This document shows, piece after piece, positions 8,874-46,327 of a stretch of 64,000 bases of DNA. Position 1 is the first letter of the stretch, and every line of letters begins with the position of its first letter. Under the pieces are notes generated by a model that was given only the letters and a program-made list of their open reading frames with translations, did not search any database and had not been told where the DNA came from. A program made the position numbers and the translations under genes. The stretch is from NCBI GenBank assembly GCA_001600635.1, contig BCKL01000001.1, positions 213,550-277,549 of the forward strand. The letters run 5' to 3'. This DNA is from Leucosporidium creatinivorum (taxonomy: Eukaryota > Basidiomycota > Microbotryomycetes > Leucosporidiales > Leucosporidiaceae).

Positions 8874-10073
8874 TCACAACCACCACGGTTTCTCAATCAC
8901 CAAATCTACGCTCACCTTTTGACAGCACTCCACCGCCGTCTCCCACCACACTCTCTGCTCCTCATCCGCCCCCGCCTCGTTCAGAGCGAACCACACATCT
9001 CTCCCAAGCCGAATCACCTCGAGGTGTGGCGGAGGCGTAATATTGCGGTGGTTGAAAGGCTGGATAATGCACGAGGGGTGCGTGTTGATGCTCTGCAGGT
9101 TGAGTATTTGGAGTGTCGAGGGAAGGTGAGGGAGGAGAGCGGTCGGGAGGGGATGGGCCGACGTCCCAGGGCCGTGCTTTAGCTCCAGGTCTTCGAGCGC
9201 TGGGAGCAATGAGATGCGCAATGCAACTTGGTGAGGGTATAGAGCGCAGGAAGTCGTCACAAAGATGTGTAGCTTGCGAAGGGCGACAAAGTCGGGAAGC
9301 GTTCGGCCGAGTTCGTCGTCGATGAGCACGTCCGAGTGAATGCGGAGGGAGCGTACAGTCGAGTCTGAGTTGACGAGGAGTGCACGGAAGAGGGGACAGT
9401 CGACCGTATCAATGTCGAGGTAGGTAAGAGCGAAGGGGAAGACGGGGAGCGGAGGGACCGGTCCCAGCGCATCGTAGAGTGATAACCTGCGCAGGCTCGG
9501 CAGTTGGGCGAAGAACTCGAGTATCCGCCCTTCGAGGGAGCGAATCGACAGCTCTGTCAAGGGGAGGCGTCGGCCGAGCTTCAAGATCGTAGCGACGACG
9601 TCGGCCGTGGCGTCCCAGTCGCCGTGCTGCTCGAGGTCTAGCTCTGTGACGTTGGGGCAGGCGGATAGGACAATCTGAAGGGAGGGTCGGATCGTCTCTG
9701 CGTCTTGCCTGGTGTACTTGAAGAAGGAGAGGTCGATTGTGAGACGGCGAAGGTGAAGGCCGAGGTCAGGCGCCTCGGTGAGGGTGCGAAGGAAGGTAGC
9801 ATCGTCCGTGATCAGGCCCGTAGGCTCTTCGACGGCCTCTTTATCGTCGTCGACATCCCAGCGCTGATAGCTGAGCCTCGTGGACTGGTAGAGCTCTTCC
9901 TGGATCCGAGGGCAGAACGCCTTCGATACCAGGCAAAGTGGGGCGATATCCTGTCTCTGGTGGAAACCTTTGGCTGTTTGCTCGAGGATGAAACTGAGGA
10001 TTTCGAGTGGTAGGCGAGAGAAGAGCTCGATGAGGGACGGCGTTTCGGCGGAGGGAGCCTCGGCGGAGGGCAT
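8874..10073 (-). CDS. F-box/LRR-like protein, left-arm copy
   Basis: Single 399-aa coding exon starting at the MPSAEA methionine. An upstream non-coding exon is joined by a 67-nt intron (10178-10112, GTGAGT..GCTGAC..CTACAG). That intron length is not a multiple of three, which is why the frame upstream of 10073 is not used. Residues 14-50 form an F-box (LPLEILSFILEQ, then LCLVSKAF), the Skp1-binding motif of SCF ubiquitin ligases. The rest is a run of leucine-rich repeats (LRRLTIDLSF, VTELDLEQHG, LTELSIRSLEG, LRRLSLYDAL) expected to bind substrates. It is one of four relatives in the window (13330-14532, 34834-35985, 43461-44657), all with the same leader intron layout. It lies head to head with NTAQ1 at 10784. 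Substrate unknown. Confidence 0.82.
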   Translation of the reverse strand: MPSAEAPSAETPSLIELFSRLPLEILSFILEQTAKGFHQRQDIAPLCLVSKAFCPRIQEELYQSTRLSYQRWDVDDDKEAVEEPTGLITDDATFLRTLTEAPDLGLHLRRLTIDLSFFKYTRQDAETIRPSLQIVLSACPNVTELDLEQHGDWDATADVVATILKLGRRLPLTELSIRSLEGRILEFFAQLPSLRRLSLYDALGPVPPLPVFPFALTYLDIDTVDCPLFRALLVNSDSTVRSLRIHSDVLIDDELGRTLPDFVALRKLHIFVTTSCALYPHQVALRISLLPALEDLELKHGPGTSAHPLPTALLPHLPSTLQILNLQSINTHPSCIIQPFNHRNITPPPHLEVIRLGRDVWFALNEAGADEEQRVWWETAVECCQKVSVDLVIEKPWWL

Positions 10074-10111
10074 GTTGGCGATGGGAGGGTCGGAAGAGGG
10101 GTAGGGTCGGT

Positions 10112-10178
10112 CTGTAGATGTTGGCAGGTCAGCTCGGCTCTGCTGGGGCCTGCCTCGAACGCGAACGCGACTACTCAC
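10112..10178 (-). other. 5'-leader intron of the F-box gene
   Basis: GTGAGT donor after CTTCAG, GAGCTGAC branch region and CATCTACAG acceptor on the minus strand. Equivalent introns sit in front of the F-box copies at 14532 and 34834, so the leader structure was copied with the gene. Confidence 0.6.
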
Positions 10179-10265
10179 CTGAAGGCGAGCAGGGGAAGTG
10201 CCAAGGCGAAGCGACGACCGAGCTTTGAGGAGCGATCGAAGCAAGTTCTGCGAGCGAGAAAGCAC

Positions 10266-10783
10266 CGCGTCAGTACTGTAGCGATCTCCAGTTGTCTGAG
10301 ACCCTCTCGAGCAGCTCAGCGAAGCTCGGACCCTCTCGTAACGACGCGACTGCTTCAGCGCGTCGACTGAGCGATAATCTTGCTGTTCTTACGCCTTTCT
10401 AAGGGCGATGCAGTGGAAGGATAGCAGAGAAACTTACCCGATGTGACTCGACGATGCTTGAGCACCAGTACAAGCGTCCTGCAGCTTCGGATCCGAGCGA
10501 GAAGCGAGGTCGACGAGTGCGCGACGAGCAACGAGTGTAGCTGAGCGAGGGCTAGTTGATGAGCTCTGCAGCGCGCGAGCGAGTCCTTCTGTAGTCCAGC
10601 AACTGTAGCGAGGTCGAAGAAGCGAGACGAGCCGAGTTGTAGCGAGAGCGAAACCCTCGAAGTCGAAGCGAGCGGCCCTTGCCCTCCGCCAAATTTCCAA
10701 AGCTGTAGCTCTCGCCTTCCAATCTCGGTTCTCGCTCTTTAGTCACGTCGACTGTCTGCCGCGCTACAGCTGCTCTACCTCGC
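10266..10783. other. Shared F-box/NTAQ1 divergent promoter, repeated in both arms
   Basis: About 500 bp between divergent starts. The part from about 10434 to 10783 recurs inverted at about 34140-34490 and in a more diverged form at 45000-45362. It is dense in TGTAGC/GCTACA words, so it may contain the control elements common to the duplicated gene pairs. Confidence 0.5.
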
Positions 10784-11778
10784 ATGCACCTTTCGCCAGC
10801 GCTTCGCCCTCCGCGAGCGCTCCCCTCGCCTCCCTCGCTGCACACGCCCTACTACTGCGAGGAGAACGTCCATCTCCTTCTGCAGTCGCTCAATACCACC
10901 CGACGAAAAGCCTACGCCCTCTTCATCACCAACTTCGACCGAGCCGCCCTTCTCTTCCACCAAAAGGCCTCCCCGCCCGAGCGAGCGGATCAGGGTCACT
11001 ACGTGGTGTGGGATTACCATGTGATCGCTGTTACGGTAGAGGAGGATGGTACACGATGGGTGTGGGATCAGGATTCAAGGCTAGGCTACCCGGTAGAGCT
11101 GCAAGGTGTGTTCGGCGCTGCTCTCCTCCCTTCTCCGCCGAGAGCAAGCCTGATCTTTCCGCTCAACGCAAGCAGAATACCTCGAAGCCAACTTCCGACC
11201 CGACTTGTTCGATCTGGGCGTCCTCCCTGCTCTGATGGCTAGGTGAGCCCTCCTGCTCTGCGCTTCGCCGACGACCGAGCTGAACATCGCCGCCCCTCAC
11301 CACACGTACAGCCGCTTTCGCATCGTCCCCGCTCAAGATCTGTTCAACAACTTTGCCTCTGACCGATCTCATATGGTCCGTCTAGCCTTTCTTCGCTCCA
11401 TCTCGTGCTCGGCGCTGACCTACTCCTGACCGACAGCTCTCACCACCGTCGGCATGCTCCTCCTCCTCGAATTCGGCACCTGTCGTAGGGCTTTCACATC
11501 CTGTTGTACCCACCTACATCTACCCTCCACCGCCCTATCCTCCTCTGCTCGGTCCGGCAGCACTCGCCCGAGGAGAGCGGATGAACCTGTTCGAGAAGTG
11601 GCTGGATGTGAGGATTGGAACTGAGATGGAGGGAGAAGAGCAGATGGAGGGATTTGGAGTCGTGCTGAAGGACGTTGCAGAGGTGTTGGAGTGGAGTGCT
11701 GGGAAGAGTGAAAAGAATGAAAAAGGGAGCGGCGGGGGGCGGTCTAGTACGGAGGAGGGCGAGGCAGTTCAACGATAG
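10784..11778 (+). CDS. NTAQ1: Protein N-terminal glutamine amidohydrolase (NTAQ1/WDYHV type), left-arm copy
   Basis: Four exons, 10784-11105, 11176-11242, 11312-11375 and 11437-11778, give 264 aa with consistent phases. NTAQ1 deamidates N-terminal Gln to Glu, feeding proteins into the Arg/N-degron pathway. The signature residues are present: PYYCEENVHLLLQ with the catalytic Cys, HYVVWDYHVI with the catalytic His, and WDQDSRLGYPVELQ with the Asp. Exon 2 encodes the YLEANFRPDLF segment and exon 3 RFRIVPAQDLFNNFASDRSHM, both typical of the family. A Pro/Tyr-rich linker and an NLFEKWLDVR helix follow. The tail beyond LEWS is low-complexity Lys/Gly/Ser. The right-arm copy matches almost perfectly in exons 1-3 but differs in the C-terminus. 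Confidence 0.9.
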
Positions 11779-11787
11779 TGAGGAGCT

Positions 11788-12429
11788 ATGTCAGTAAGCT
11801 TGTCGTCCTCATTCCTCACGCCGAGCAGCGAGAGACCGCTCAAGCCAGCGCCGCAAGGTGGACCGAGCTCAACTGCGAGACGACGGACGGCCACCGGTGT
11901 TGATCAGGTGCAAGCTTTTCTCGCTTTTTCCATGTCGCTGGAGCCGGTATGATGGTGAGCTGTAAGTGTGAGGTCGGAGGAGCAAAGCCTACAGCGTATA
12001 AACTTCAACTCATGCTCTCTCTCCTTCGCAGACCCCGCCGAAGCCGAGCCGAAAGGCCTGACGGTCGAGGTCGGAGGAGTCACCTTCAAGCTCTCCGCCC
12101 GACAGCTAGCCAAAGATGGGCCGAACATCTTCAGCCAATCGCCATCCTCTCACCCTCTCATACTCGACCGCAGCCCCGAGCTGTTCAAGCTCATCCGTGA
12201 CCACCTCTCCGGCTACCGAATCTTTCCCCTCAATCCCTACTATTTCGCCACGGCACTCGATATGACCTACAGCAATCTCCTCGACGATGCTCTGGCGTAT
12301 AAGCTAAGAAGCCTGGCGAAGGGGATCATCTATACGATGAGGGATGTCGGCGCTCAGCCGAACGAGGTTCAGAAGCAGTTGGCGGTGGAGCTGGGTCTCT
12401 TCACACTGCACGAGGCGTCCTTTCTTTAG
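11788..12429 (+). CDS. KCTD-like BTB (T1-type) protein
   Basis: Proposed exons 11788-11907 and 11995-12429, 184 aa. The intron starts GTGCAAG and ends CCTACAG, phase 0 on both sides. The first exon is Ser/Pro-rich. The second carries a T1/KCTD-style BTB fold: LTVEVGGVTFKLSARQL, then HPLILDRSPELFKLIRDHL, SGYRIFPL and YSNLLDDALAYKLRSLAK. Family members are often Cul3 adaptors, but no Cul3-binding residue was checked. It starts 9 bp after the NTAQ1 stop and on the same strand, a spacing kept in the decayed 45.4-47.4 kb module. The first exon is the least certain part; an alternative acceptor at 12031 needs a different upstream exon. Confidence 0.6.
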
Positions 12430-12894
12430 GTGTGCTTCTCTTGTCTTTCCAGTGACGACCGCAGATCCTCAGGGCTAACCTGTCGCCCGATTCTTCCCTT
12501 CGCTCAGCGTCGGCGATGGACTGTAAAGGTTGAACCTGCAAGGAAGCGGCTCGGAGTTGTGCGAGGGTATAGTTATACGATCATGGAAGTCATCGCGCGG
12601 TTTAGGAAAAGCCGAAAAGTTGGTGGTTGACCTCGAGGAGAGGATCGCCGAGAGGGGGCGAAGCTAGATCTGCAGTTGACGACCAGCAGAAGGCACTCCT
12701 GCGAGAACGGCTGGCTGCACGGGTTGCGGTCACATCAGCTCTACTCCGAGCCTGACGAGTACTATCAGCTCCCAAAGCTGCAGGAGAAAGTCAAGAAGGA
12801 GCTCGCTAAGAAGGGAGCGGCGGCGGGTCAGGCTCTCCGAGGGAGCGCAGGCGCGGGTGAGGGCAAGAAGGGCAAAAGCTTCAGACGGCTTTGA
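12430..12894 (+). pseudogene. Remnant of a second KCTD-like gene
   Basis: Beyond the stop at 12429 the plus strand still carries protein-like pieces in shifting frames: VVRGYSYTIMEVIARFRKS, EKLVVDLEERIAERG, and at 12740-12894 SEPDEYYQLPKLQEKVKKEL ending in a Gly/Lys-rich tail. The last piece aligns by eye with the DARFYELKGLEELVEKEV plus tail of the KCTD-like gene at 18297-18914. It appears to be the 3' portion of a dead paralogue, or downstream exons of the preceding gene that I could not connect in frame. Confidence 0.4.
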
Positions 12895-13329
12895 AAGCGA
12901 TCAAGGGGCATCCCAGGGAGGATGGATCCTCGGGCGGCGCTGGCGTGTGCGTTCTGCGCCTCTTTCTCCTCCTCGTCTCACCGAGCTGACCCTCACCTCA
13001 CTTTGCAGAGCTCCGCAGGCCCAGTAGTTTCCTCGCACAACTTGGACATGCAGGCCGCTACATTGGTCAGCGCTGAAAGAGCCCGAGACTCTATAGCTGG
13101 CTGCAAATGAACGGTAGCAGACGAAGCGGGTGGGAACCGAGCAGCGCCGAGCTTTGCGAGCGCGTCTCGCCGCGGGCGAGGTCCCGCAACGCCTCCTTTT
13201 GCGTCAGCTCGTTGCTCTACGCAGGTGATCTGAGTGAGCTTGATGCTTATTCGACCCTCTCACCCAGACTGGAGGTCGCGAAGCCCGAACCTCTCGCCGA
13301 GCGCGCCTTGTCGCTTCAAGCCGACAACC
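12895..13329. other. No gene seen
   Basis: Spacer between the KCTD remnant and the 3' end of the minus-strand F-box copy. Short frames only. Confidence 0.4.
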
Positions 13330-14532
13330 TCAGTAATTTTCAACCTTGACCTCTACACCAGCTCCTACACAACACTGTACAGCAGTTTCCCACCACAGGC
13401 GCTCCCCTTCGTCTTTTCCTTCCAGCGCCCGCTTCACCCCTCGGCCGAGGCGAATGAACTTGAGATTCGGTGGACAAGTGATGTCGCGGTGGTGAAAGAG
13501 TTGGATGAGACTGGTTGGGTGTGCGTGGATTAACTGCAGGTCCAGCTCCTTGAGAGAGAGGGGGAGGCGAGGGAGTAGGGCTGTAGCGAGTGGGTGGGGA
13601 TTGGGGGCGAGGATCCCAATGGCGGAGAGGGTGAGATGCCTGAGCTGGGTAAGGGACGAGATGGCAAGGGCGGTGGCCTGACAAAGTTCGACGTCCTCCG
13701 ATCGCTGAAAAATGTGGAGCTTGCGCAAAGCGACAAACTCGGGAAGCAGGTTCCGAACGGCTTCCTCGGCGAGTACGTCCGATCCGACGATGAGGTTTGC
13801 AAGAGTTGCAAAGGAGTGGGAGGTGAGGGGACAGAAGAGTCGGAGCGGGCTGTCGACGCATGAGAGGCTGGTAAGGGAGCAGGGGAACGAGGGGGGTATA
13901 TCGAGATGGTCGTCGTTTCGGAAGCCGGCGATGTCGAGATGGAGGTCACGCAGATGTGGCAGTCGTTTGAGGAGAGAGATGACACCTGGTCCGACGTGTG
14001 AGATCTCGAGCGTCTCGATTGGCGGCAGGCGCTCGAGCTCGGCGACGATGGCCGCAATATCGTCGGTCGCCTACCACGCCGCATGGTGATCCACGGTGAG
14101 CTCTGTGAGGTGCGGGCAGAGCCTCAGCACTTTCTGCATCGACAGCAGGACGCCTAGCTCGTCCTCCTCGGTATAGCTCCAGAACTCGACGAAGATGTTG
14201 AGGTGGCGAACGAGTGGTCGGAGATGGGGCGCCCGCTTCAGCGTATGGCGGATGGCGTCCTCGACTTCAAGCTCTGGTTGAGGGTCGATAGGTTCCTCAT
14301 TGTCGTCGATGTCCCATCTCTTGTAGCTGATCGACGCCTTGTGGTAGAGCTCTCGCTGTATGCGGGGCAAGAAGGTCTTGGACACGAGGCAGAGTGGGGC
14401 GACGTCCTTGCGAGAGTAGGTCATCTGGGCCTTTTGCTCGAGGATGAGGCCGAGTATCTCGAGAGGTAGGCGGGAGAAGAGCTCGGCGAGAGAGGGCGAT
14501 TCGGCGGAGGGAGGAGCTTCGGCGGAGGGCAT
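13330..14532 (-). pseudogene. F-box/LRR-like gene with a single in-frame UAG
   Basis: The 401-codon frame from the MPSAEAPPSAE start at 14532 to the stop at 13330 is broken only by a TAG at 14073-14071, after codon 153 (HHAAW, stop, ATDDIAAIVAEL). Both halves are well formed: an F-box at residues 14-50 (LPLEILGLILEQ, LCLVSKTF) and LRRs on both sides of the stop. The leader intron matches those of the sister genes (GTGAGTGCTCG..GAGCTGAC..GCGCACAG). One stop with no frameshift implies a very recent loss, read-through, or a sequence or consensus error in this repeat-rich locus. As drawn, the product is an F-box with a truncated LRR. The right arm has no counterpart. Confidence 0.75.
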
Positions 14533-16095
14533 GTCGGCGGTGAGAGCGGCGGGGGATGTGGAACGTCGAGCTGTGCGCGACGGAAGGTCAGCTCGCTGTG
14601 TGTGAAGCTCATTCTCAATACTCGAGCACTCACCTGAAGGCGAGGGAGGGTACAGCGAGAGCTCAGCAGCGGCGAACGAGCTTTCCGAGGTGGTAGCGGC
14701 GAGCTGGAAAGCGAGAAGCAGGAAGTCAGCAGTGAGATACCTAATACTCTGTTCCCTTTGTCCACAGCAGCAGGGCCGGCTCCTGCAGCCTGCCTTCCAG
14801 CGCGGCTCCCTCTGCGCGTCGACTTGGCACCCCTTGCCGTTTGCGGCGATCGAGAGGGCAAGGGAGCTCTGACAGGATAAATAAGCTCACGCAAAGTACT
14901 CCGATGGGCGCTGAGGTCCAGCACGAGTCTCCAGCAGCTTCGAGCGGGACGTGAAGCGAGGTCGACGAAAGCGCGACGAGTAGCGGATGTAGCTTAGCGA
15001 GTTCCGGCTGCTGCTCTCTGTAGCACGAGCGACTCCTCCTGTAGTCCCGCAGGCGTAGCGAGGGCGAAGAAGCTAAACGAGCGGAGTTCTAGCCGGAGCA
15101 AGAACTGCGAGCAGCTCGATTTCCTCTCTTCCTTCGTCGCCTACCTCGCTACAACTCGTCTCTCACCTCCGACAGCGAGGACGATAAAGTAGGACTAGCG
15201 TGCACTGCTCGCCTGGTCAACAAGCTACCCTTCTCGGCCTGTTCGGTCGTTAAGCTTCGAGGTGCTTGCTCCCCGTGTAGGAGCTCTTGCAGGCTACGAA
15301 TGACTGCATTCGGACCGGTAGCAAGCTGGCCGCCTGTACGAGCTCTACTCCGGTCTCTCTGTCTTGCAGTCAGACTGACCTGATCGATCCTGCTCTCTGC
15401 AGGCGGAACAGTTCGGCGACTGGAGCTCTGGCGCTCTTCGAGCGGGAACGGACCTCGCTGCAGGTAAGCCACGCGTTCAAAGTTCCCTAACAGCTCGCTA
15501 CTACACCGCTAACCTCTTCGGTACCAACTTCCCTTGCAAAGCGTCTCGCCTTTCCCTCGTCCCCTCCGCCGAGCTTCACAAGCTCCCGTCTCGGCGCCTC
15601 ATTTCGGGAAGGAGGAGAGCTCTTTGGACGTCGGTCATCTTAAGACTTGGATTACAAAGTATCAGCAAGTTTCCGAACCACGCCCACCTCTTCATCTCGC
15701 CACTCTGGAAGGAGGCTCGGCGCCGGCCTCGGCTCAGCTCGGTCGGCTCTTGTTCAGCAGGCGCTTCCATCTTGTGAGACGGCGACAAGGCTTTCAGCAG
15801 TATTACATCCTCACTCTGGGCCGGGATCCTCGATGCTGTCTCTCCGCCCACGCTTCGCTGAGCTGGTTCGGCGCTCGGTCGGCCCAGGTCAGAGGTGGTC
15901 TCGTAGCGGATGAGGTACAGACGAAGCTGGGACAGGTGACCTAGGGACGGAGAATTTATGTCAGCCTATCTTCGACTGCACATCTGAGCGCAAAGCTACA
16001 CGAGCCTCGAAGGACACAAGAGGCGACGACGCCGAGCTCCGCCCTGTCTCGCCTTCTCACCACACCGCTCGCGACTCTTTGCTCGACACAGCAAC
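14533..16095. other. Spacer; part of the inverted repeat
   Basis: About 15130-16095 recurs inverted at about 32148-33110. I see no continuous gene, though a Leu/Arg-rich frame near 15534-15944 and its mirror may be a shared remnant. The segment 14600-15130 is unique to the left arm and is rich in TGTAGC/GCTACA words. Confidence 0.4.
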
Positions 16096-16744
16096 ATGTC
16101 CACCACCAACGAGGAAAACAAGCAGGTCGCCATCCAGTACGTCAACGAGGTCTGGGGCAAGGGCAACGTCGATTTGGTGAGCTACAGCTTCGCTCGCTCT
16201 CTGGCTCGTCTTCCGCGCTCGGCGTCAGCTCACCTACGTCGCTCGGCTCGCCCAACAGATCGACAAGCTCATGAACGATAAGGTCAAGCTCATCTCGCCT
16301 TTGACCGGTCCTCTTGTAGGTCATTCTCGCCCGTTCTCGAGCCCTCGCTCATCGCCGCGCTCTTAACGACTCGCTCGCTCACTCTAACACTTCCCTGCAC
16401 CCTCACAGGCCGGTCGCGAGGCGCTCAAGAAGACCATCCATGGCCTCCGCAAGTCCTTCCCCGACGTCACCAGCAAGCTCATCTCGCCCGTCATCGCCGA
16501 GACGACCGCCGAGGGAGAGTTTGTCGTCCTCCGCTACTCGTCGCAGGGCACGCATACCGGTCCCGCCTACACCGACGTCCCCGCTGGCATGCCCAAGATG
16601 ACACAGGACAACACGGGCAAGCAGTTCGACCTTACGGGCATCGCCTGGATCCGCTTCGAGGAGGGCAAGATTGTCGAGGTCGTCGAGGAGGAGAGCGCGT
16701 TGGAGGTGCTCGCGCAGCTTGGCTTGGTCGAGATGAAGAAGTAG
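16096..16744 (+). CDS. SnoaL-like/NTF2-like ester cyclase family protein, left copy
   Basis: Three exons, 16096-16176, 16259-16315 and 16409-16744, give 157 aa, all phase 0. The N-terminus NKQVAIQYVNEVWGKGNVDL, then LISPLTGPLAGREALKKTI, then LRYSSQGTHTG and a closing GIAWIRFEEGKIVEVVEEE fit the SnoaL-like branch of the NTF2 fold: a compact cone whose cavity binds a small substrate. Known members include polyketide cyclases, but many fungal ones are uncharacterised, so no reaction is assigned. There is no signal peptide. The mirror copy at 31504-32147 differs at a few positions (for example E7 to D). It converges with the BTB gene. Confidence 0.82.
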
Positions 16745-17007
16745 GCTTGAGGGAGCAGTTCTTGATGTAGGAGGATAGGCTTGCTGCGATACGAAGGCTC
16801 TTTCGCTTGACCTTCGCCGAGCGTTGCGAAGACCGAGACTCTCTCGTTCTCGGGCTCTTTCCTCCGCCACAGGGGACAGCGATCAGGAGCAAGCACTCCT
16901 ACGGAATGGCTCGTACTCTCATCAGCAGAGCAGCCGCACACCTCTCCGTAAAGTCAGTACCTCGGCGATGGCTGCTCAGCGAAAACCTGGCTCAAGCGCT
17001 GTGTGGA

Positions 17008-18176
17008 TTACAAGCTCAAGAACTCGGAGAGAAGACTAACAGANAGTGTCTCCAAACTCTTCACCAGTCCGTCAACCGTGTATTCCCACTCCATCAGAGG
17101 CCAGTCGCCATCGCAGCCAGGAGTGCGCCCCATCGCCGCGCGAGCTTCAACTTTGCCCTCGGAAACGAAGACCTTGAGCTGTGCAAGCGACCTGTAACGC
17201 CTCGTCTTCTCCCAAATCATCCAGGCGAGCCCCACGTTGTAGCAGTTGGTGTCCCCGTCTTCGTGTCGAACGAGCTCGTCNACCATCTCGGCAAGCTTCG
17301 ATGCGGCGTCATCTCGAATCTTGCGGGCGCGCTCACGGCGGACGCGAAGGGCTTCAGTCTGCGGAGCGCATCGGAGGGGATGAAGCTGTGTCAGCACCAA
17401 CCCTTGGCGGAGAAGGAAACGCAGACTGAGCCGACCGGAAAGCTGGCTTACCCGCGCCGACGAGTTGTCCACCGGGTACGACGGTCGGATCCTCTCTGGC
17501 CAACAAACAACGTCTTCCTTGGAGGCTTCCTCGATCACCCGTTTGGCAGCAGTCGCTCGGAGGTTGAGATTGTGGTGTGAAGCGAAGACGAAGGCCTGGT
17601 AGTCGTGCTCACGCTTGGGCGGCGATTCGGAGAGCATGCGGTAGCTGCGGGACGAGAGGAGGTCAGCTCCGTGAAATGTGTACAGCTTAATGCTTCCACT
17701 TGCCTGAAGGCGGCGGAGATGGCCTCCAGTGCTCGGTCGATCTGCAAGGCGAAGCGGTCAGCTCGGCGGTCTCGTAGCTGTAGCCTACCTCCTGCTGCAC
17801 TCACCTCGTACTTATCAGCAGCCGAGATCAGGCTCCAACTCTGAGGGAAGCTCAACTCGAGAGGAGGGACGATGCCAGGGTAGACGTAGGGCAAGAGCGC
17901 CTCGAGAACCTCGCTCGATTCGGTGAGGTCGACTTGAGGACGCTGGCTCTCGCTGGGAGTTCCACAGGTTTCGAACATGCTCCTGAAGACTTCGGATCCT
18001 CCCTCGAGTCGTTTGCGGTGGACGGCGAAGTGTACTCCGCTGCAGCAAGGGCGAGTCGTTAGCGAGTCGTGCGAGAGAGAAAGGTGCAGACAAGCTCACT
18101 CGGAGGAGATGAGAAGCACATCAGCGTCGTCCGCCTTGAACTTCTGAGAGTAGATGGTTTCCGAGTCTGTAGCCAT
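17008..18176 (-). CDS. BTB/POZ domain protein, full-length left copy
   Basis: Five exons on the minus strand, 18176-18100, 18039-17805, 17741-17704, 17644-17452 and 17358-17008, give 297 aa with consistent phases. The N-terminal BTB fold shows FKADDADVLLISSD, GVHFAVHRKRL, EVFRSMFET and LTESSEVLEALLPYVYPG, which normally mediates dimerisation and, in Cul3 adaptors, ligase binding. The C-terminal half (about 132-297) is a helical Arg/Glu-rich region with MIWEKTRRYRSLAQLKVF and no known domain. The third intron uses a GC donor (TTCAG, then gcaagt), whereas the right-arm copy has GT there. Two ambiguous bases (17044, 17281) lie in the last exon. It is divergent from the KCTD-like gene 120 bp away. 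Confidence 0.8.
17044..17281. other. Ambiguous bases mirrored in the other arm
   Basis: Single N characters at 17044 and 17281 correspond exactly to N at 31204 and 30967 (each pair sums to 48248). The same two uncertain bases in both arms suggest a shared or collapsed consensus. Confidence 0.9.
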
Positions 18177-18296
18177 GTTGAGCGAGAAGCAAAGAGGCGA
18201 GACGAGCAGCGAGCGGGTAAAGGGAGAGAGGCGAAAGGCGGGGAGCGGCGCCTTTCTTGCTCCTCCCACAACCTTGTCTCAACTTGACTTCGGCCG
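18177..18296. promoter_or_regulatory. 120-bp bidirectional promoter (BTB / KCTD-like)
   Basis: The only sequence between the divergent start codons at 18176 and 18297. The mirrored pair in the right arm is separated by 112 bp (29953-30064). Both contain a CTCCCACAAC-type block and an ACTTCG..CG block, so co-regulation of the two genes is likely. Confidence 0.6.
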
Positions 18297-18914
18297 ATGA
18301 CTGCGCTACAGGAGAGTGAGTAGTACTACAGAAGCCTGCTGGACGTGCATAGCTCACTCCGAACTCCCCTACAGCCATCGCCGAGCCGCTTCGTCCCGCT
18401 CCTCCCGCTTCTCCTTCCAGCTCGGCGCACTACACCATCTCCCTTCGTGGCACTCACTTCACCCTCTCTGGGACTCTCTTTCGATCCCACGCTCCCAACT
18501 ACTTCACCCGCACCCTCCTCGCCCCTCTCTCGTCCCAGCTCGTCACCCCTCGCTGCTCGGCGTGGGAGCTCGACCGCGATCCCAAGCTGTTTGAGGTTGT
18601 CGTCAACTACCTCGTGGGATACGAGGTGCTTCCTCTTGATGGCTCAGCCTTCCTCGCCGATCGAGAGACGGCCACCCGCAACCTGCTGCTCGATGCGAGG
18701 TTCTACGAGTTGAAGGGATTGGAGGAGCTCGTCGAGAAAGAGGTACAGAGGCTCGATAAGGGGTGTGTGTACTAGAGATCAGATCTCCGACATGTCCCTG
18801 ACCACCTTTCACCCCAGCAGTGCTCTCAAGGACAAGAACAAGCAGCTCGGCGATGGCGGCGCTGGCTCGGCGCAGCACGACGAGCCTTTCAAGGGCATCT
18901 TCTCGGCGATGTAG
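18297..18914 (+). CDS. KCTD-like BTB (T1-type) protein, left copy
   Basis: Three exons, 18297-18315, 18375-18762 and 18818-18914, give 167 aa. The T1-type BTB fold is complete: TISLRGTHFTLSGTLFRSH, PNYFTRTLL, LDRDPKLFEVVVNYLVGYEV and RNLLLDARFYELKGLEELV. A short tail ends in FKGIFSAM. The first coding exon encodes only MTALQE. T1/KCTD proteins oligomerise and many recruit substrates to Cul3 ligases; here that role is inferred. The mirror copy (29338-29952) is one residue shorter but intact. Confidence 0.8.
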
Positions 18915-19542
18915 CTGTCGCGTACTGCTGTGGGATGATTTGAAACTGTGGAGAGACTATATCCGGCTTTTTACCTACTGCAGCGAGGCTAACATGGAAC
19001 CCGACTTCTCATCGCCGAAGCACCGAGGGAGGCTGCCTTCTCACGAGGGACTGATGAGATACGGCGAGCGCGCGAAGAGTAAGTCCGCTCTAGTATACTA
19101 CATGCTGGACGATCCAGGAAGTTTTGCTCCTGTAAGCCAAGCAGTCGCCAGCCAAGCTCGGTAGTGGCAGTATATACTCGCTGTTTTGTACTTCGCTACA
19201 GCAGCTCGGACCCCTCGCTCCCTCTCGTTTCGCTACGTCTCTCTGTATCTAGACCTCTCGAGGCGTCTCATACCACCCTTCGAACATTTCGCGGTAAGTC
19301 TCGGTCGAGCTTTGACCCCCCTTCGTCCGCGAGCTCCAAGCTTGCCTTCGACCTGTTGCCGCAGCATCCTTCGCTCTGTCTCCACTTTCTGCATCTTCTC
19401 CCTCTCTTTCACCCCTCTCCCTATCCTTCCTCTCGTCCTCATCGGCAGCTGATTCGTCGAAACCTGGAAGGTCCTCACTCTCCCTCACGCCTTTTCGCCA
19501 ACAAGGCGAACGGAGAAGGCGCCGCCGAGAGCACAAGGAGCT
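18915..19542. other. Arm end and upstream region of the zinc-finger gene
   Basis: Up to about 18941 the sequence belongs to the inverted repeat. The remainder is unique and CT-rich (19200-19480), and probably holds the promoter and leader of the gene at 19543. Confidence 0.45.
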
Positions 19543-21948: not shown

Positions 21949-22110
21949 AGTGGGGAGGGATGCGGCGAGCGCCGAGCAGGAGGAGGGAGCTGTAGATAGA
22001 TGAGCTTCGTCGGGAGAGGGCGTTTATGTTATCGTAACGATTCGTACTATTCCATTGGCGGCGTCAGGCGAAGCAAGCATCTTTTCTCTGCAGCTGTTCC
22101 TCATTACTTT

Positions 22111-23463: not shown

Positions 23464-23917
23464 GGCGATGTGAGACGAGAGCGAGCGAGCGAGCGAAGTG
23501 AAGCGGAGGAGAGAGAGAGGTGCTCGGCGCTTCTTTCGAGAGAAGGGGACCCGCTCAGGGGTAGTCGCAAGCAGGGAGCAGCTTCTGACGAGCTTCAACA
23601 TTTCCTCGCTTCCCAGTCTGCTCTACCTGTTACTCAACAGGCGAAACCCCTTGCCTTCGCTTCTGATGACAGCACCGCTCGAATCTCGAGTCGCGAGTCG
23701 CGCTGCAGCTTGGCCTCTCCCTCGTCGTCTCAAATCGTCTCGCTACTCGCCAACAACTCGAGAGCTCGCTCGTACATCCTACCAAGCTACAGTTTCGCCC
23801 CGTAACTCCCTCTCGCGCAGGCCGGCCGATTAAGAGCTCCTCTCGAGCGACCCCCCCTCTCGAGCTTCCAGCGCGACACTTCGGCTGTTGATGCGTCGAA
23901 CAGCCTCGAGGGGCGAC
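23464..23917. other. Divergent promoter region (KCTD-like / Rsp5-type)
   Basis: No coding seen. An in-frame upstream ATG at 23891 could extend the Rsp5-type protein by nine residues, but it has T at -3, while the 23918 start has G at -3. Confidence 0.5.
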
Positions 23918-27502
<3,585 letters not shown>

Positions 27503-27938
27503 AACTCGGCGCCTCTTCCTCCTTCATTTCGTTCCCACCCTCGCATGTTTGTCGTTTCTTATCTATACCCACCACCTGTTCGTTTCTCTATAATCTACCT
27601 TGTGGCGGTACATAGCTGTAAAGTCGTTGATCGTGCTCTCCTCCGACTCGACGCGGAGAGAGCGAGCCGAGGTCGGCGCGCGAAGGCGGGGGCGAGGTCG
27701 CTCAGCACACGTCGATGGCGGTGCAGTGCGGTACTGTCTCTTCAAGCGACGCGCCCGTGATCGTTCCAGCGCGCACAGCTTACGAAAGTCAATCGGAATC
27801 GCTGTCGAGATCGCCGCTCGGCGCTCGCAGAGCCTGCTCTCATTCCCGCGATTCTTGGCTTCCTCGCTCTCTTCGCTTCTCTGCTCCTCTTCTTCTCTTT
27901 CCCGTCCATCACAGCTGCCCCTCATCAGCCTAATCAGC
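27503..27938. other. Spacer between the Rsp5-type and DUF7729-like genes
   Basis: Terminator and leader region; the AT-richer part (27545-27620) may hold the 3' end signal of the ligase gene. No gene seen. Confidence 0.45.
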
Positions 27939-29151
27939 ATGCCCTGCTCTGCACTGCACCTCACTGTCCTCACCCTGCTCGTCTTGCTCCTCCCGTTCTC
28001 AGCAGCGCAACTCGACCTGGGGTTGTCGGGAAGCTGTCAAGCGGCCGCCACTTCTCTAGTAGCTACTCGTGAGTACCTTCAAGCTCCTTGCACATCTTCC
28101 CGCCGTCGGCATGCTGCAGCACGCCCTCCGCCGAGCTTCCCGAATCCGAGCAAGTTGACTGATCGCTCATCCTTCATATCGATAGCTTTCGCCGCCTGTA
28201 TTGACATTGTTGGACTAGCGGGTGTATTTTCAGCCGGTGGCTCAATAATTCAGCCACGTAAGATCACTTCCGTGAGCTCCCTTGCGTTGAAGCTAATTCT
28301 CGGCCCTCTTTCGCACACAGTGGACAATTGGCTGCACGGCGCCTGTGCTCGTACATGCTCGGCTGGTGATCTCCAAAGTGCCAAGATTGTGCTGGATCAA
28401 GGGTGCAAGGAGGACATCGCTAATGGGAGCGCGTTAGCGGTGAATTGGCAGAAGCTCGGCGTTATTGCTTGCGAGTGCTGATCCTTTGCGCCTGCAGATC
28501 GGACTCAACGCCGTCGTCGCCAACTATACGGAAGCGAGAGATATGCTCTGTCTACAAGCCAAGTCAAACTCGTCGTTCTGTCTCCCTGCGTTCGTCCTCT
28601 CGCGCTCCTGCTATCGCCGAGCTTGCTAACCACTACCATCGCTCTGCCGACACAGGACATTACACACCCTCGAGTCCCAGTCCATCTCGAAGAACCTCAC
28701 GGAGCCCTTGCCCTCTCAATTCGTCTTCTCCCTCTTCACTACCGGCGCCTCTGGTGCCTACGACCTCATCCTCGCTCTTCAAAGCATCCCTCGGCCTTTG
28801 CTATGCACCGACTGCCTTCACGCACTCCTCACCAAATTACTCGTCTTCATTGGCGTCGACTCAGCGAGTAGTGGCGTTGCCGGCAGTGGATTGATCGACC
28901 TGTGCGGCGAGGACTTCGGCGATCGCAAGATCCCTCCCTCGGTCGTTGTCGCGCCTGCTACCGACTCCAGCGACACTGTGACAGCTAGTGGGACCTCTAC
29001 ATCGGGTGCCGCGGGCAGCACCGGATCGACCACCAGCAAAGACAAGACGAGCGGCGCTTCGGCGAGGAGTAGAAAGGAGCAGGCGGGAAGAGCGGCGCTC
29101 TTGGCGCTCGCGGGCCTGATGGCGTTGGGTGGCGGGATAGTCTTGCTGTAG
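27939..29151 (+). CDS. Secreted, probably GPI-anchored protein, DUF7729-like
   Basis: Five exons, 27939-28068, 28186-28257, 28321-28439, 28498-28589 and 28656-29151, give 302 aa. A clear signal peptide (MPCSALHLTVLTLLVLLLPF, then SAAQ) starts the protein. The body has spaced cysteines (GSCQAAATSL, ACIDIVG, CARTCSAGDL, DQGCKEDI, FCLPATLHTLES, LLCTDCLHALLTKL, DLCGEDFGD), the pattern I associate with the fungal DUF7729 family. The C-terminus is a Ser/Thr/Gly-rich stalk followed by a hydrophobic tail (AALLALAGLMALGGGIVLL), as expected for a GPI-anchor signal, so it likely sits at the cell surface or wall. The phase of every junction is consistent. Function unknown. Confidence 0.75.
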
Positions 29152-29337
29152 TTCTTGACCTCGGTTGCACTGTGGACGGAGAGCTGGGCTTTGCAGTTGC
29201 CGCCGTCTTTTTTGCGAATCGCCGAGCTCTGTGTCGAGCGGGAAACCTGCTTTCTCGGCTCTCGAGGTTGCAATCTGGCTGGGCGGGCCGCTCTCTCGTC
29301 GTCGTTTACTACAGCAACCCACAGCAGCACGCGACAG

Positions 29338-29952
29338 CTACATCGCCGAGAAGATGCCCTTGAAAGGCTCGTCGTGCTGCGCCGAGCCAGCGCCGCCATC
29401 GCCGAGCTGCTTGTTTTTGTCCTTGAGAGCACTGCTGGGGTGAAAGGTGGTCAGGGACATGTCTGAGATCTGATCTCGAGTTCACAAACCCCTTCTCGAG
29501 CCTCTGCACCTCCTTCTGGACCAGTTCCTCCAATCCCTTTAACTCGTAGAACCTCGCATCGAGCAGAAGGTTGCGAGTGGCCGTCTCTTGGTCGGTGAGG
29601 AAGGCCGTCTCGCTGAGGGGCAGTACCTCGTATCCCGCGAGGTAGTTGACGACCACCTCGAACAGCTTGGGATCGCGGTCGAGCTCCCACGCCGAGCAGC
29701 GAGGGGTGACGAGCTGGGACGAGAGAGGCGCGAGGAGGGTGCGAGTGAAGTAGTTGGGAGCTTGGGATCGAAGGAGAGTCCCAGAGAGGGTGAAGTGAGT
29801 GCCGCGAAGGGAGATGGTGTAGTGCGCCGAGCTGGAAGGAGAAGCGGGAGGAGCAGGACGAGGCTCGGCGATGGCTGTTGGGGAGCTGGGGGTGAGCTGT
29901 GCACGTCCAGCAGGCTTCTGCAGTACTACTCACTCTTCTGTAACGCAGTCAT
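29338..29952 (-). CDS. KCTD-like BTB (T1-type) protein, right copy
   Basis: Exons on the minus strand, 29952-29934, 29874-29490 and 29434-29338, give 166 aa. It has the same architecture as 18297-18914: MTALQK start, T1-type BTB with FEVVVNYLAGYEVLPL and NLLLDARFYELKGLEELV, and the FKGIFSAM end. It is three bases shorter in exon 2 and has scattered substitutions, yet the frame and all splice sites are intact, so both copies look usable. Confidence 0.8.
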
Positions 29953-30064
29953 GTCCGAGACGAAGCCGAGACGAAGTTGTGGGAGGAGGAAGAGGAGCGC
30001 CGGTCTTCGCCTCTCTCCCTTCGGCCGCTCGCTGCTCGTCTCGCTTCTTCGCTTCTCGCTCGAC
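29953..30064. promoter_or_regulatory. 112-bp bidirectional promoter (right arm)
   Basis: Mirror of 18177-18296. It contains the same GTTGTGGGAGGA-type block between the divergent KCTD-like and BTB starts. Confidence 0.55.
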
Positions 30065-30646
30065 ATGGCTACAGATTCGGACACCGTCTACTCACAGCGC
30101 TTCAAGGCAGACGACGCTGATCTACTCCTCATCTCCTCCGAGTGAGCCCTTCTGCACCACTCTCGCTCGCAAGGCTTGCTGACGACTTTCCCCCTCTGCA
30201 GCGGAGTACACTTTGTCGTTCACCGCAAGCGACTTGAAAGAGGATCCGAAGTCTTCAGGAGCATGTTCGAGACCTGTGGACCTCCTTGGGAGGGCCAGCG
30301 GCCTCAAGTCAACCTCACCGAATCGAGCGAGGTTCTTGAGGCGCTCTTGCCCTACGTCTACCCTGGCATCGTCCCTCCTCTCGAGTTGAGTTTTCCTCAG
30401 AGTTGGAGCTTGATTTCGGCTGCTGACAGGTATGAGGTGAGTGCAGCAGGAGGTAGGCTACAACGAGACGAGCGCCGAGCTAACCCGCTCCGCCTCGCAG
30501 ATCGACCGAGCTCTGGAGGCTATCGCCGCCGCCTTCAGGTAGCTTGAAGCATTAAGCTGTACACATTTTACGGAGCTGACTTCCTCTCGTCCCGCAGCTA
30601 CCGCATGCTCTCCGAATCGCCGCCCAAGCCCGAGCACGACTACTAG
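30065..30646 (+). CDS. BTB/POZ protein, right copy truncated by an early stop
   Basis: Exons 30065-30141, 30202-30436, 30501-30538 and 30598-30646 give 132 aa ending at TAG 30644-30646. The BTB domain is complete (DDADLLLISSD, GVHFVVHRKRL, LTESSEVLEALLPYVYPG). Compared with the left copy, six extra bases (TAGTAC) after the HDY codons create the stop. The rest of the left-copy reading frame continues downstream to 31240, still open apart from the shared intron. The third intron has a normal GT donor where the left copy has GC. Either this is a BTB-only derivative or the left copy has lost the stop; the sequence cannot say which is ancestral. Confidence 0.7.
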
Positions 30647-31240
30647 TACCAGGCCTTCGTCTTCGCTTCACGCCACAATCTCAACCTCCGAGCGACTGCT
30701 ACCAAGCGGGTGATCGAGGAAGCCTCTAAGGAAGACGTTGTTTGTTGGACAGAGAGGATCCGACCGTCGTATCCGGTGGACGACTCGTCGGCGCGGGTAA
30801 GCCAGCTTTCCGGTCGGCTCAGTCTGCGTTTCCTTCTCCGCCAAGGGTTGGTGCTGACACAGCTTCATCCCCTCCGATGCGCTCCGCAGACTGAAGCCCT
30901 TCGCGTCCGCCGTGAGCGCGCCCGCAAGATTCGAGATGACGCCGCATCGAAGCTTGCCGAGATGGTNGACGAGCTCGTTCGACACGAAGACGGGGACACC
31001 AACTGCTACAACGTGGGGCTCGCCTGGATGATTTGGGAGAAGACGAGGCGTTACAGGTCGCTTGCACAGCTCAAGGTCTTCGTTTCCGAGGGCAAAGTTG
31101 AAGCTCGCGCGGCGATGGGGCGCACTCCTGGCTGCGATGGCGACTGGCCTCTGATGGAGTGGGAATACACGGTTGACGGACTGGTGAAGAGTTTGGAGAC
31201 ACTNTCTGTTAGTCTTCTCTCCGAGTTCTTGAGCTTGTAA
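30647..31240 (+). pseudogene. Untranslated 3' half of the right BTB copy
   Basis: Sequence equivalent to the C-terminal half of the 297-aa left-arm protein, with the same intron (GTAAGCCAGC..CTCCGCAG) and the same MIWEKTRRYRSLAQLKVF block. It lies downstream of the early stop and therefore is probably not translated. It contains ambiguous bases at 30967 and 31204. Confidence 0.65.
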
Positions 31241-31503
31241 TCCACACAGCGCTTGAGCCAGGTTTTCGCTGAGCAGCCATCGCCGAGGTACTGACTTTAC
31301 GGAGAGGTGTGCGGCTGCTCTGCTGATGAGAGTACGAGCCATTCCGTAGGAGTGCTTGCTCCTGATCGCTGTCCCCTGTGGCGGAGGAAAGAGCCCGAGA
31401 ACGAGAGAGTCTCGGTCTTCGCAACGCTCGGCGAAGGTCAAGCGAAAGAGCCTTCGTATCGCAGCAAGCCTATCCTCCTACATCAAGAACTGCTCCCTCA
31501 AGC

Positions 31504-32147
31504 CTACTTCTTCATCTCGACCAAGCCAAGCTGCGCGAGCACCTCCAACGCGCTCTCCTCCTCGACGACCTCGACAATCTTGCCCTCCTCGAAGCGGATC
31601 CAGGCGATGCCCGTAAGGTCGAACTGCTTGCCCGTGTTGTCCTGTGTCATCTTGGGCATGCCAGCGGGGACGTCGGTGTAGGCGGGACCGGTATGCGTGC
31701 CCTGCGACGAGTAGCGGAGGACGACAAACTCTCCCTCGGCGGTCGTCTCGGCGATGACGGGCGAGATGAGCTTGCTAGTGACGTCGGGGAAGGACTTGCG
31801 GAGGCCATGGATGGTCTTCTTGAGCGCCTCGCGACCGGCCTGTGAGGGTGCAGATGAGAGTGAGAGTGAGCGAGCAAATTTAGCAGCGCGGCGATGAGCG
31901 AGGACTCGAGAAGGGACGAGAATGACCTACAAGAGGACCGGTCAGAGGCGAGATGAGCTTGACCTTGTCTTTCATGAGCTTGTCGATCTGTTGGACGAGC
32001 CGAGCGATGCAGATTAGCTGACGCCGAGCGCGGATGAGCGAGAGAGCGAGCGGAGCTGTAGCTCACCAAGTCGACGTTGCCCTTGCCCCAGACCTCGTTG
32101 ACGTACTGGATGGCGACCTGCTTGTTATCTTCGTTGGTGGTTGACAT
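31504..32147 (-). CDS. SnoaL-like/NTF2-like protein, right copy
   Basis: Exons on the minus strand, 32147-32067, 31987-31931 and 31839-31504, give 157 aa. Exon lengths are identical to those of the left copy, with very few amino-acid changes. The open frame and conserved splice sites indicate both copies are functional or only recently duplicated. Converges on the BTB right copy. Confidence 0.82.
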
Positions 32148-33146: not shown

Positions 33147-34138
33147 TCACAAGCGGCGAACTTGCCTCGTCCTCGCTTGTACTCGACCAGCCCGGTCCCC
33201 TCCCTCCCCGGGCTCTTCCCAGCCAGTCCACTCCAGTAGCTCTCCAACATCCTTCAACACCACCCCAAATCCCTCCAAGTGCTCTTCTCCCTCTTTCTCA
33301 CTGGCGAGCCGCACATCCAGCCACTTCTCGAACAGGTTCATCCGCTCTCCTCGGGCGAGTGCTGCCGGACCGAGCAGAGGAGGATACGGCGGTGGAGGTT
33401 GGATGTAGGTGGGTACAACAGGATGCGAAGACGCTATGAGAGGTGCCGAAGTTGAGGAGGAGGAGCATGCCGACGGTGGTGAGAGCTGTCGGTTAGGAGT
33501 AGGTCAGCGCCGAGCACGAGATGGAGCGAAGAAAGGCTAGACGGACCATATGAGATCGGTCAGAGGCAAAGTTGTTGAACAGATCTTGAGCGGGGACGAT
33601 GCGAAAGCGGCTGTACGTGTGGTGAGGNGCGGCGANGTTCAGCTCGGTCGTCGGCGAAGCGCAGAGCAGGAGGGCTCACCTAGCCATCAGAGCAGGGAGG
33701 ACGCCCAGATCGAACAAGTCGGGTCGGAAGGTGGCTTCGAGGTATTCTGCTTGCGTTGAGCGGAAAGATCAGGCTTGCTCTCGGCGGAGAAGGGAGGAGA
33801 GCAGCGCCGAACACACCTTGCAGCTCTACCGGGTAGCCTAGCCTTGAATCCTGATCCCACACCCATCGTGTACCATCCTCCTCTACCGTAACAGCGATCA
33901 CATGGTAATCCCACACCACGTAGTGACCCTGATCCGCTCGCTCGGGCGGGGAGGCCTTTTGGTGGAAGAGAAGGGCGGCTCGGTCGAAGTTGGTGATGAA
34001 GAGGGCGTAGGCTTTTCGTCGGGTGGTATTGAGCGACTGCAGAAGGAGATGGACGTTCTCCTCGCAGTAGTAGGGCGTGTGCAGCGAGGGAGGCGAGGGG
34101 AGCGCTCGCGGAGGGCGAAGCGCTGGCGAAAGGTGCAT
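33147..34138 (-). CDS. NTAQ1: Protein N-terminal glutamine amidohydrolase (NTAQ1 type), right-arm copy
   Basis: Exons on the minus strand, 34138-33817, 33746-33680, 33610-33547 and 33485-33147, give 263 aa. Exon 1 and its catalytic residues (PYYCEENVH, VVWDYHVI, WDQDSRLGYP) are the same as in the left copy, and exon 2 differs by about one residue. Exon 4 shares the Pro/Tyr-rich linker and NLFEKWLDVR helix but diverges after LEWTGWEEP into an Arg-rich tail. Identity that is patchy along one gene suggests gene conversion between the arms. Two ambiguous bases (about 33628 and 33636) lie in the third intron. Confidence 0.88.
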
Positions 34139-34833
34139 GAGAGGTAGAGCAGCTGTAGCGCGGCAGACAGTCGACGTGACTAAAGAGCGAGAACCGAGAT
34201 TGGAAGGCGAGAGCTACAGCTTTGGAAATTCGGCGGAGGGCAAGGGCCGCTCGCTCGACTTCGAGGGTTTCGCTCCCGCTACAACTCGGCTCGTCTCGCT
34301 TCTTCGACCTCGCTACGGTTGCTGGACTACAGGACTCGCTCGTGCTACAAAGCTCATCAGCTAGGACTCGCTCAGCTATACCCGTTGCTCGTCGCGCACT
34401 CGTCGACCTCGCTTCTCGCTCGGATCCGAAGCTGCCGGTCGCTTGTACTGGAGCTCAAAGCATTGTCGAGTTACGTCGAGTAAGTCCCTCTGCTCTCTCC
34501 CCGCCCCATCACCCTCGGAGCGGCGCAGAGAGAGCCATACTCCCTCACTTGACGCGCAGGACCAGTCGCGCTGAGCGGGAGAGGGCAGCTCCGCTGAAGT
34601 GCTCAAGAGGTCGCAGACGACCGGAAGGCATCGCATACTGACTCGTGCTCCCTCGCGTGCAGATCTTCTTGCTACCGCCTGTGAACGCTTGGTCGTCGCT
34701 TCCTCGCTCCCGCACCTCCTCGTCTCGCCACCAGGTGAGTGCCCGACCTCTCGCACGGGCTTCAAGACAACCAGCTGACCTCTTAACTCGTACAGCTGAA
34801 CCTTCCACCTGTCCCGACCCTCCCATCGCCGAC
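34139..34833. other. Divergent promoter and F-box leader (right arm)
   Basis: About 34140-34490 mirrors 10434-10783. The F-box leader intron lies at about 34735-34797 (GTGAGTGCCC..CAGCTGACC..CGTACAG). Confidence 0.55.
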
Positions 34834-35985
34834 ATGCCCTCCGCCGAAGCTTCAATCTCGGCGCTCTCCCTCGCCGACTCGGGACCCAGCCCTCGATTAC
34901 CGTTCGACGTGTTGAACCTCATCATCGGGGAGACAGTCAGAGTCAGCACCCTCCAGACGGCTGGTCGTTTCTGCCTCATCAACAAGTCGCTGCTCGCAAC
35001 CGCTCAGCGCGGACTCTACAAGTGCCTACCCATCTCCTACACGCTCAAAACGCAGGAGACCGAGGACAACACTACACTAGTCGGAGTGTGGTCACATGAC
35101 GCACTCCCTCGGCGTACGCTCAAGGATGCACCCCAGCTCGGCCAGCACGTTCGCATGGTCCACCTCATCGTCAACTTCGGCGAGCACTACACCGAGGGCG
35201 ACCTCCTACATATTCAGAAGTCTCTGCAGGAAATTGTAGCAGCGTGTCCGAACGTTGCAAAGCTGGTCATCGAAGATCACGGGATGGTCGAAGTCCCGGA
35301 CAACGTCGCCGCCGTTCTCTCTCGGTCGAGCTGGGTCGACACATTGCGAAACGTACAGATCGACTATACTGGTGAAGGAGCCGTTGCACTTCTCTCGAAG
35401 CTTCGTCAGCTCCAGTTCCTCGCCATCAGCAGCCTCAACTCATACGGCGAGCTCGAACACTCGGATTCCCCTCCCGCCATACCCGAATCCTTCCCCTTCT
35501 CTCTCACCGAGTTGGACTTCCGCCTCTACACCCCTCAGATATTTACCTCGCTCGTACACAACTCTCTGAGCACCCTCACCTCGCTTGTAATCCCCGACCA
35601 CGTCCTGATCGACCTCGAAGTCCTGAAAGCGGTTCCCGCCATGGTCAATCTTCGGAGCCTCCAGCTCGATCTCTGGGAGGTCACAAACGTGCCAGACACT
35701 CGGGCCATCGCGTCGGCCATATCTTCGCTTCCCAATCTCGAATCTCTCACTCTTTGGGTCTTCGGCACCACTCCGGAAGCTCATCCTCTTCCCGCCATCC
35801 TCTTCCCTCGCCTCCCTCAATCCCTCCAACGACTCGATATCTCGGACATCAAGTACCATCCGACCACACTCATCAAGCTCTTCAATCACCGCAAGATCAC
35901 ACCGCCCCCTCGTCTCAAGGAGATTGTGCTCGGGCGCGATGTGCTGGCGGCGATGAGGGGCGATATAGCGGAGGAAAGGCTGTGA
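34834..35985 (+). CDS. F-box/LRR-like protein, right-arm copy
   Basis: Single 383-aa exon starting at the MPSAEAS methionine, after a leader intron like those of its paralogues. The F-box is at about residues 20-60 (RLPFDVLNLIIGE, FCLINKSLL). LRR-like segments follow (VRMVHLIVNF, VAKLVIEDHG, LQFLAISSLN, LTSLVIPDHV, LRSLQLDLWE, LESLTLWVFG, LQRLDISDIKY). It keeps the C-terminal motif LIKLFNHRKITPPPRLKEI but lacks the WW(E/D)TAVECC block that ends the sister proteins. It is much more diverged from the left-arm F-box than the flanking spacer is, so the arms are not uniformly similar. Role as an SCF substrate adaptor is inferred. Confidence 0.8.
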   Translation: MPSAEASISALSLADSGPSPRLPFDVLNLIIGETVRVSTLQTAGRFCLINKSLLATAQRGLYKCLPISYTLKTQETEDNTTLVGVWSHDALPRRTLKDAPQLGQHVRMVHLIVNFGEHYTEGDLLHIQKSLQEIVAACPNVAKLVIEDHGMVEVPDNVAAVLSRSSWVDTLRNVQIDYTGEGAVALLSKLRQLQFLAISSLNSYGELEHSDSPPAIPESFPFSLTELDFRLYTPQIFTSLVHNSLSTLTSLVIPDHVLIDLEVLKAVPAMVNLRSLQLDLWEVTNVPDTRAIASAISSLPNLESLTLWVFGTTPEAHPLPAILFPRLPQSLQRLDISDIKYHPTTLIKLFNHRKITPPPRLKEIVLGRDVLAAMRGDIAEERL

Positions 35986-46324: not shown

Positions 46325-46327
46325 CGA

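Follow-up and report, generated by a model that had tools for sequence, protein, structure and literature searches.

Introduction

Large palindromes of the sex-chromosome type consist of two symmetric arms around a spacer. Those of mammalian sex chromosomes are described as inverted arms that share more than 99% identity and undergo arm-to-arm gene conversion (PMC8981503). From chromosome XIV of Saccharomyces a flip/flop region has been described, in which gene-bearing and almost identical repeats of 4.2 kb, inverted and homogenized by non-allelic conversion, flank a gene-bearing segment of 24 kb that occurs in both orientations among strains (PMC9731477). In that account the two orientations are attributed to continual homogenization, no flip was recorded in ~53,800 mitoses and 950 meioses, and false homogenization from assembly error is weighed and answered by independent long-read assemblies (PMC9731477). 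Here we analysed a stretch of 64,000 nucleotides (the window; C1:213550-277549, where C1 is contig BCKL01000001.1) from the Leucosporidium creatinivorum genome of 27.7 Mb in 63 contigs. In this window a left arm (L) and an inverted right arm (R), both carrying an NTAQ1 gene, enclose a loop. All results come from sequence comparison within this one assembly. We conclude that the locus is probably a local segmental-duplication cluster, with a diverged inverted pair in which one stretch, and likely a second, has been reset by non-allelic gene conversion.

The locus is similar to the Saccharomyces region in that gene-bearing inverted repeats flank a gene-bearing, largely unique segment and appear to have been homogenized by non-allelic conversion, but its arms are only ~90% alike and include two short tracts of homogenization, and a single orientation is present in one draft assembly (compare PMC9731477). 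Homogenization by conversion is found at one of these tracts, and at the other it is confounded by a shared consensus. With the mammalian palindromes the locus has in common the inverted arms and the arm-to-arm conversion, whereas arm identity (91.7% and 89.5%) stays below 99%, a 3.3-kb indel makes the arms unequal, and at least four partial copies are found instead of two symmetric arms (compare PMC8981503). What does fit is a local cluster of segmental duplications subject to ectopic conversion, as both nearby multi-gene copies and mosaic similarity were found. The event is of a known kind, an inverted and partly decayed segmental duplication with ectopic conversion, and of modest interest. 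In the same genome, C7:1116798-1200377 likewise forms a local, multi-copy cluster of mixed orientation, with nine matches to loop positions 23047-23347 over 84 kb. It represents another family, with short matches of 69-78% on both strands, and indicates that clusters of this sort occur at least once more in the genome.

Inverted arms and further copies

Self-comparison of the window revealed two pairs of inverted arms, both with E = 0. The inner arms (15121-18937 on the plus strand and 33128-29315 on the minus strand) are 91.7% identical over 3838 columns and contain, on the left, a spacer followed by SnoaL-like, BTB and KCTD-like genes. Outside 16395-17465 they show 289 mismatches at 2727 gap-free sites (~89% identity). 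The outer arms (10056-11708 on the plus strand and 34851-33213 on the minus strand) are 89.5% identical over 1671 columns; the left one comprises the 5' end of an F-box-like gene, a shared upstream region and NTAQ1. The initial annotation had described a giant imperfect palindrome with the mirrored order F-box, NTAQ1, SnoaL, BTB and KCTD-like around one centre near 24124. The inverted arms and the mirrored order were recovered, and NTAQ1, SnoaL-like, BTB and KCTD-like genes could be hand-spliced in both arms. The centre at 24124 applies to the inner pair, but the outer pair is centred at 22453. The centres differ because a segment of ~3.3 kb that separates NTAQ1 from the SnoaL spacer (about 11790-15120, within the left-only stretch 11709-15120) has no counterpart on the right; it contains the outer KCTD-like frame along with a second F-box-like gene. 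The inverted duplication is real within the assembly and ordinary in kind, but the term giant palindrome overstates what is one pair among at least four partial copies.

Except for a 0.6-kb repeat (22111-22728), the loop (18938-29314; 10.4 kb) is single copy. Five other genomic places resemble this repeat at 90-96% identity. For the loop pieces 19000-21900, 22800-25900 and 25900-29300, genome searches returned the self-match and, beyond it, nothing but short or diverged pieces of 69-90% identity.

The partial copies of one gene block lie within 80 kb of C1 in the order a (minus), L (plus), R (minus) and T (plus), so that orientation alternates. DNA searches of the genome with the left arm gave at least ten and at least nine matches, the query's own place counted; apart from one C4 match per search, 126-127 bases long, all matches listed were on C1. 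Copy a (C1:180434-185723, minus strand) lies outside the window, runs parallel to window positions 10044-15327 and is 85.8% identical to the window over 4584 columns, covering most of the left outer arm. Its gene order, NTAQ1, KCTD-like and a second F-box-like gene (F-box-like'), is that of the left arm. Copy T (45175-46808, plus strand) consists of a decayed NTAQ1 and the start of the outer KCTD-like gene, with 79% identity to 10592-12208. In a genome search for the Pfam family Nt_Gln_amidase (PF09764), the eight exon matches fell at four places on C1, corresponding to copies L, R, a and T. The first-exon frame of NTAQ1 has one stop in copy a and two stops in copy T, and among the NTAQ1 genes found only those of L and R are free of such stops. 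An additional F-box-like piece was found at C1:187438-188210 and a distant SnoaL-like stretch, with 66% identity, at C1:154443-155105. The ~3.3-kb stretch missing from R is kept by L and a, and in part by T, so the simplest reading is that R has lost it.

These copies are best explained if one block (F-box-like, NTAQ1, KCTD-like, F-box-like', SnoaL-like, BTB, KCTD-like) was copied several times, whole or in part and in alternating orientation, over ~80 kb. The palindrome in the window is the best-preserved pair of copies, of which the right one afterwards lost, by parsimony, ~3.3 kb. L and R diverged while non-allelic gene conversion probably reset stretches of ~0.7 and ~1.0 kb; the perfect identity of the longer one is probably a single assembly consensus that was used for both arms.

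Gene conversion in the NTAQ1 tract

The first homogenized tract (tract 1) covers NTAQ1 exons 1-3 with their introns, at 10692-11427 in the left arm (plus strand) and 33495-34230 in the right arm (minus strand). The near-identity of these exons, noted in the initial annotation, was confirmed by alignment, and copy a could be used here as a third party. Two-state sites supporting L=R, L=a and R=a were distributed as 52:2:1 inside L 10657-11427, borders that we chose after the alignment was seen, and as 28:41:36 in the flanks (10360-10656 and 11428-11780 combined). In a test that needs no borders, the longest unbroken run of L=R sites was 32 among 160 sites, a length reached in none of 20000 shuffles. 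In the three 100-base blocks of 11060-11359, L agrees with R at 99-100% of the sites compared and copy a is 10-20% off both arms, which argues against slow evolution as the cause of the identity between L and R. The tract is not a single pasted consensus either, since the base calls of the two arms differ at 10782 and 11191 and R has two one-sided ambiguous bases (Ns), at 33628 and 33636. From this third-copy discordance, gene conversion between the arms at tract 1 is well supported. At 11460-11559, identity is 97% between L and a and 89-90% between R and either of them, a pattern that points to further exchanges among the copies.

Tract 2 and the mirrored ambiguous bases

The second tract (tract 2) lies in the SnoaL-BTB region, at 16472-17465 in the left arm (plus strand) and 30783-31776 in the right arm (minus strand). 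It consists of 994 columns without a difference when N against N is taken as a match. This is the longest run of the inner arms, and none of 2000 shuffles gave a run above 184. Similarity along the arms is thus uneven, as had been proposed. The near-identity had been placed at 16.8-17.6 kb; an exact tract does exist, but its limits in the assembly are 16472 and 17465, and differences start at 17466. The introns and the SnoaL-BTB spacer within the tracts match as closely as the exons, so selection on the proteins does not explain them.

The left arm has Ns at 17044 and 17281 and the right arm at 30967 and 31204, in exact mirror positions (17044/31204 and 17281/30967, each pair summing to 48248), a feature that the initial annotation left out of account. 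Two random Ns would meet two others by position alone about once in half a million cases (1 in C(994,2)). In both cases the N is the third base of a BTB codon (GTN and CTN), where every base is synonymous, as expected if the Ns mark true differences between two constrained copies. Ambiguous bases are described as arising where reads of several true copies pile up at positions in which the copies differ (PMC4237348), and other causes given in this description of Pilon are heterozygous sites and hard-to-sequence regions (PMC4237348). In the window all 22 Ns lie within 16,472 repeat bases, defined as intervals with a known copy of ~88% identity or more, and none in the other 47,528. Copy a, with main matches 73-88% like the window, has no N in 9,500 bases. 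Among retroelement copies of the genome, the pair on C20 and C14 has eight common Ns within an identical run of 182.

The flanks of tract 2, at 79-98% identity per 100 columns, were resolved arm by arm, which suggests that within the tract the arms really are near-identical and that the copies were indistinguishable to the assembly. Probably, one ambiguous consensus was written into both arms at tract 2. Given a shared consensus, neither the perfect match nor the precise ends of the tract nor the assembly path across it count as independent observations. We infer that the true copies differ at the two N sites and elsewhere perhaps not at all, and tract 2 is likely to reflect gene conversion also. 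The gene conversion suggested in the initial annotation is therefore upheld at tract 1 by third-copy discordance, and it is likely at tract 2, where the perfect identity is confounded by the mirrored Ns. The mirrored Ns are a caution, as they reveal the most striking evidence for conversion to be a probable shared consensus; the claim survives at tract 1, where a third copy permits an independent test.

Alternative explanations

Several points weigh against this interpretation. The evidence is the sequence of one draft assembly. We drew up the interval list for the N count after the repeats had been seen, and clustered Ns are not mutually independent. Common Ns were sought in five of the six pairs formed by the four retroelement copies and were absent from four of these five, although three of the four have Ns in the aligned part of each member. 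The window Ns at 33628, 33636 and 56472 are not matched by an N in the other copy, and Ns could have arisen in some other way. The discordance test of conversion does not apply to tract 2, which lacks a close third copy. Along NTAQ1 the identity between L and a jumps from about 80% to 99%, which makes the history a mosaic of several events. The mirrored Ns, and the common Ns in one of the five other repeat pairs, would also agree with an identity at tract 2 that is wholly an assembly artefact, the sequence of one arm, Ns included, filling the other in a region truly ~90% identical. We consider this unlikely: the flanks of 79-98% per 100 columns were resolved and only near-identical copies are expected to merge, and tract 1 demonstrates conversion between L and R. 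In a draft assembly with ambiguous bases, one might suspect that the arms represent two haplotypes, or a misjoin, instead of a duplication. This is very improbable and was rejected, as the copies are inverted, their outer flanks are unlike, they differ structurally by 3.3 kb, and the three loop pieces match themselves with no second long copy; moreover, the 47,528 window bases free of Ns give no sign of heterozygosity. Strong purifying selection alone could be invoked because the tracts overlap coding exons and the inner KCTD-like pair has a ratio of nonsynonymous to synonymous divergence (dN/dS) of 0.16. The matching introns and SnoaL-BTB spacer leave this hardly credible, and it was rejected; for tract 1 it is refuted by the 10-20% divergence of copy a at 11060-11359, where L and R are 99-100% alike.

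The initial annotation had also proposed that the loop could flip. The two copies of tract 2 form a near-identical inverted pair of ~1 kb, 13.3 kb apart, a possible substrate for inversion by crossover, so that flipping is mechanistically feasible, and the yeast flip/flop region is a precedent that follows the same logic (PMC9731477). A flip/flop locus, at which crossovers between the tracts invert the ~13 kb of 17466-30782 and both orientations occur in the species, is nevertheless quite unlikely. The single assembly of a single strain has one orientation; no second one is visible in it, and an 801-base piece of tract 2 was found at two places only. In the precedent itself no flip was seen in the mitoses and meioses cited above (PMC9731477), so flips may be rare even at a proven locus. 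It is a still more doubtful thought that the locus is a further fungal analogue of the flip/flop, in which repeated conversion among the duplicated NTAQ1 and BTB genes, both of protein-degradation type, would maintain two recombination tracts, and the zinc-finger and HECT ligase genes of the loop would switch between two orientations. If flipping were true, another lineage would be added to the small class of toggling inversions.

Genes of the arms and the loop

Gene models were hand-spliced with GT-AG introns. Left NTAQ1 (10784-11778, plus strand; four exons, stop-free) scored 129 bits against PF09764, with a cut-off of 27, and belongs to this family of N-terminal glutamine amidases; its right counterpart (33147-34138, minus strand) also has four stop-free exons. 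The SnoaL-like genes have three exons each (16096-16744, plus strand, SnoaL 66 bits; 31504-32147, minus strand). The BTB genes have five, the left one (17008-18176, minus strand; BTB 40 bits) being stop-free and the right one (30065-31240, plus strand) having an in-frame TAG at 30644-30646. We take the NTAQ1 and BTB genes to be of the protein-degradation type. The inner KCTD-like genes have three exons (18297-18914, plus strand, BTB_2 19 bits, below the cut-off of 21.4; 29338-29952, minus strand). Synonymous divergence (dS) and dN/dS between L and R were 0.14 and 0.53 for NTAQ1, 0.06 and 0.09 for SnoaL, 0.14 and 0.21 for BTB, and 0.22 and 0.16 for the inner KCTD-like pair; the values are averaged over whole genes, homogenized tracts included, after exclusion of codons holding an N or a stop.

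The F-box/LRR-like open frames extend from stop to stop, at 8874-10388 on the left (minus strand; no Pfam match, labelled after the initial annotation) and at 34642-35985 on the right (plus strand; LRR match of 17 bits, below the cut-off of 27). Their low similarity, as noted earlier, was confirmed with 37% protein identity. The second left F-box-like gene has an in-frame TAG at 14071-14073, and its matches to F-box-like (14.1 bits, cut-off 24.3) and LRR (16.3 bits, cut-off 40) are both sub-threshold. In the Pfam scan the frames 8877-10388 (F-box) and 11959-12426 (outer KCTD-like) had no match, and both labels are putative, taken from the initial annotation and our own reading of the sequence.

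Among the loop genes proposed earlier, Zap1-type zinc fingers and the WW and HECT pieces of an Rsp5-like gene were found, but the KCTD-like and DUF7729-like genes had no Pfam match on the open reading frames scanned. Many fragments likewise stayed without a name in the Pfam scans of individual frames. Five pieces at C1:1029036-1030489 are 70-89% like parts of window 26081-27297, the HECT ligase gene region, and possibly belong to a second ligase of HECT type on the same contig. The 0.6-kb element at 22111-22728 has the inverted ends CTGGGCTCCAC...GTGGAGCCCAG. By eye, exact 7-base flanking repeats were seen in three of four copies examined and none in one, and the flanking repeats of the loop copy agree at six of seven bases.

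Other elements in the window

At 49354-53855, direct repeats of 528 bases (95.5%), 3974 apart, enclose a reverse transcriptase domain (RVT_2, 96 bits), a layout that resembles a long terminal repeat retrotransposon. An open frame with an RVT_1 reverse transcriptase domain (94 bits), followed by a frame with a sub-threshold RNase H match (20.9 bits, cut-off 25.8), was found at 57806-60851. The end of the window (61000-64000) contains a polyprotein frame with RVT_2 (127 bits) inside a genome repeat, with at least 65 genome matches among those listed (40 of 50 candidates scored), and holds 15 of the 22 window Ns.

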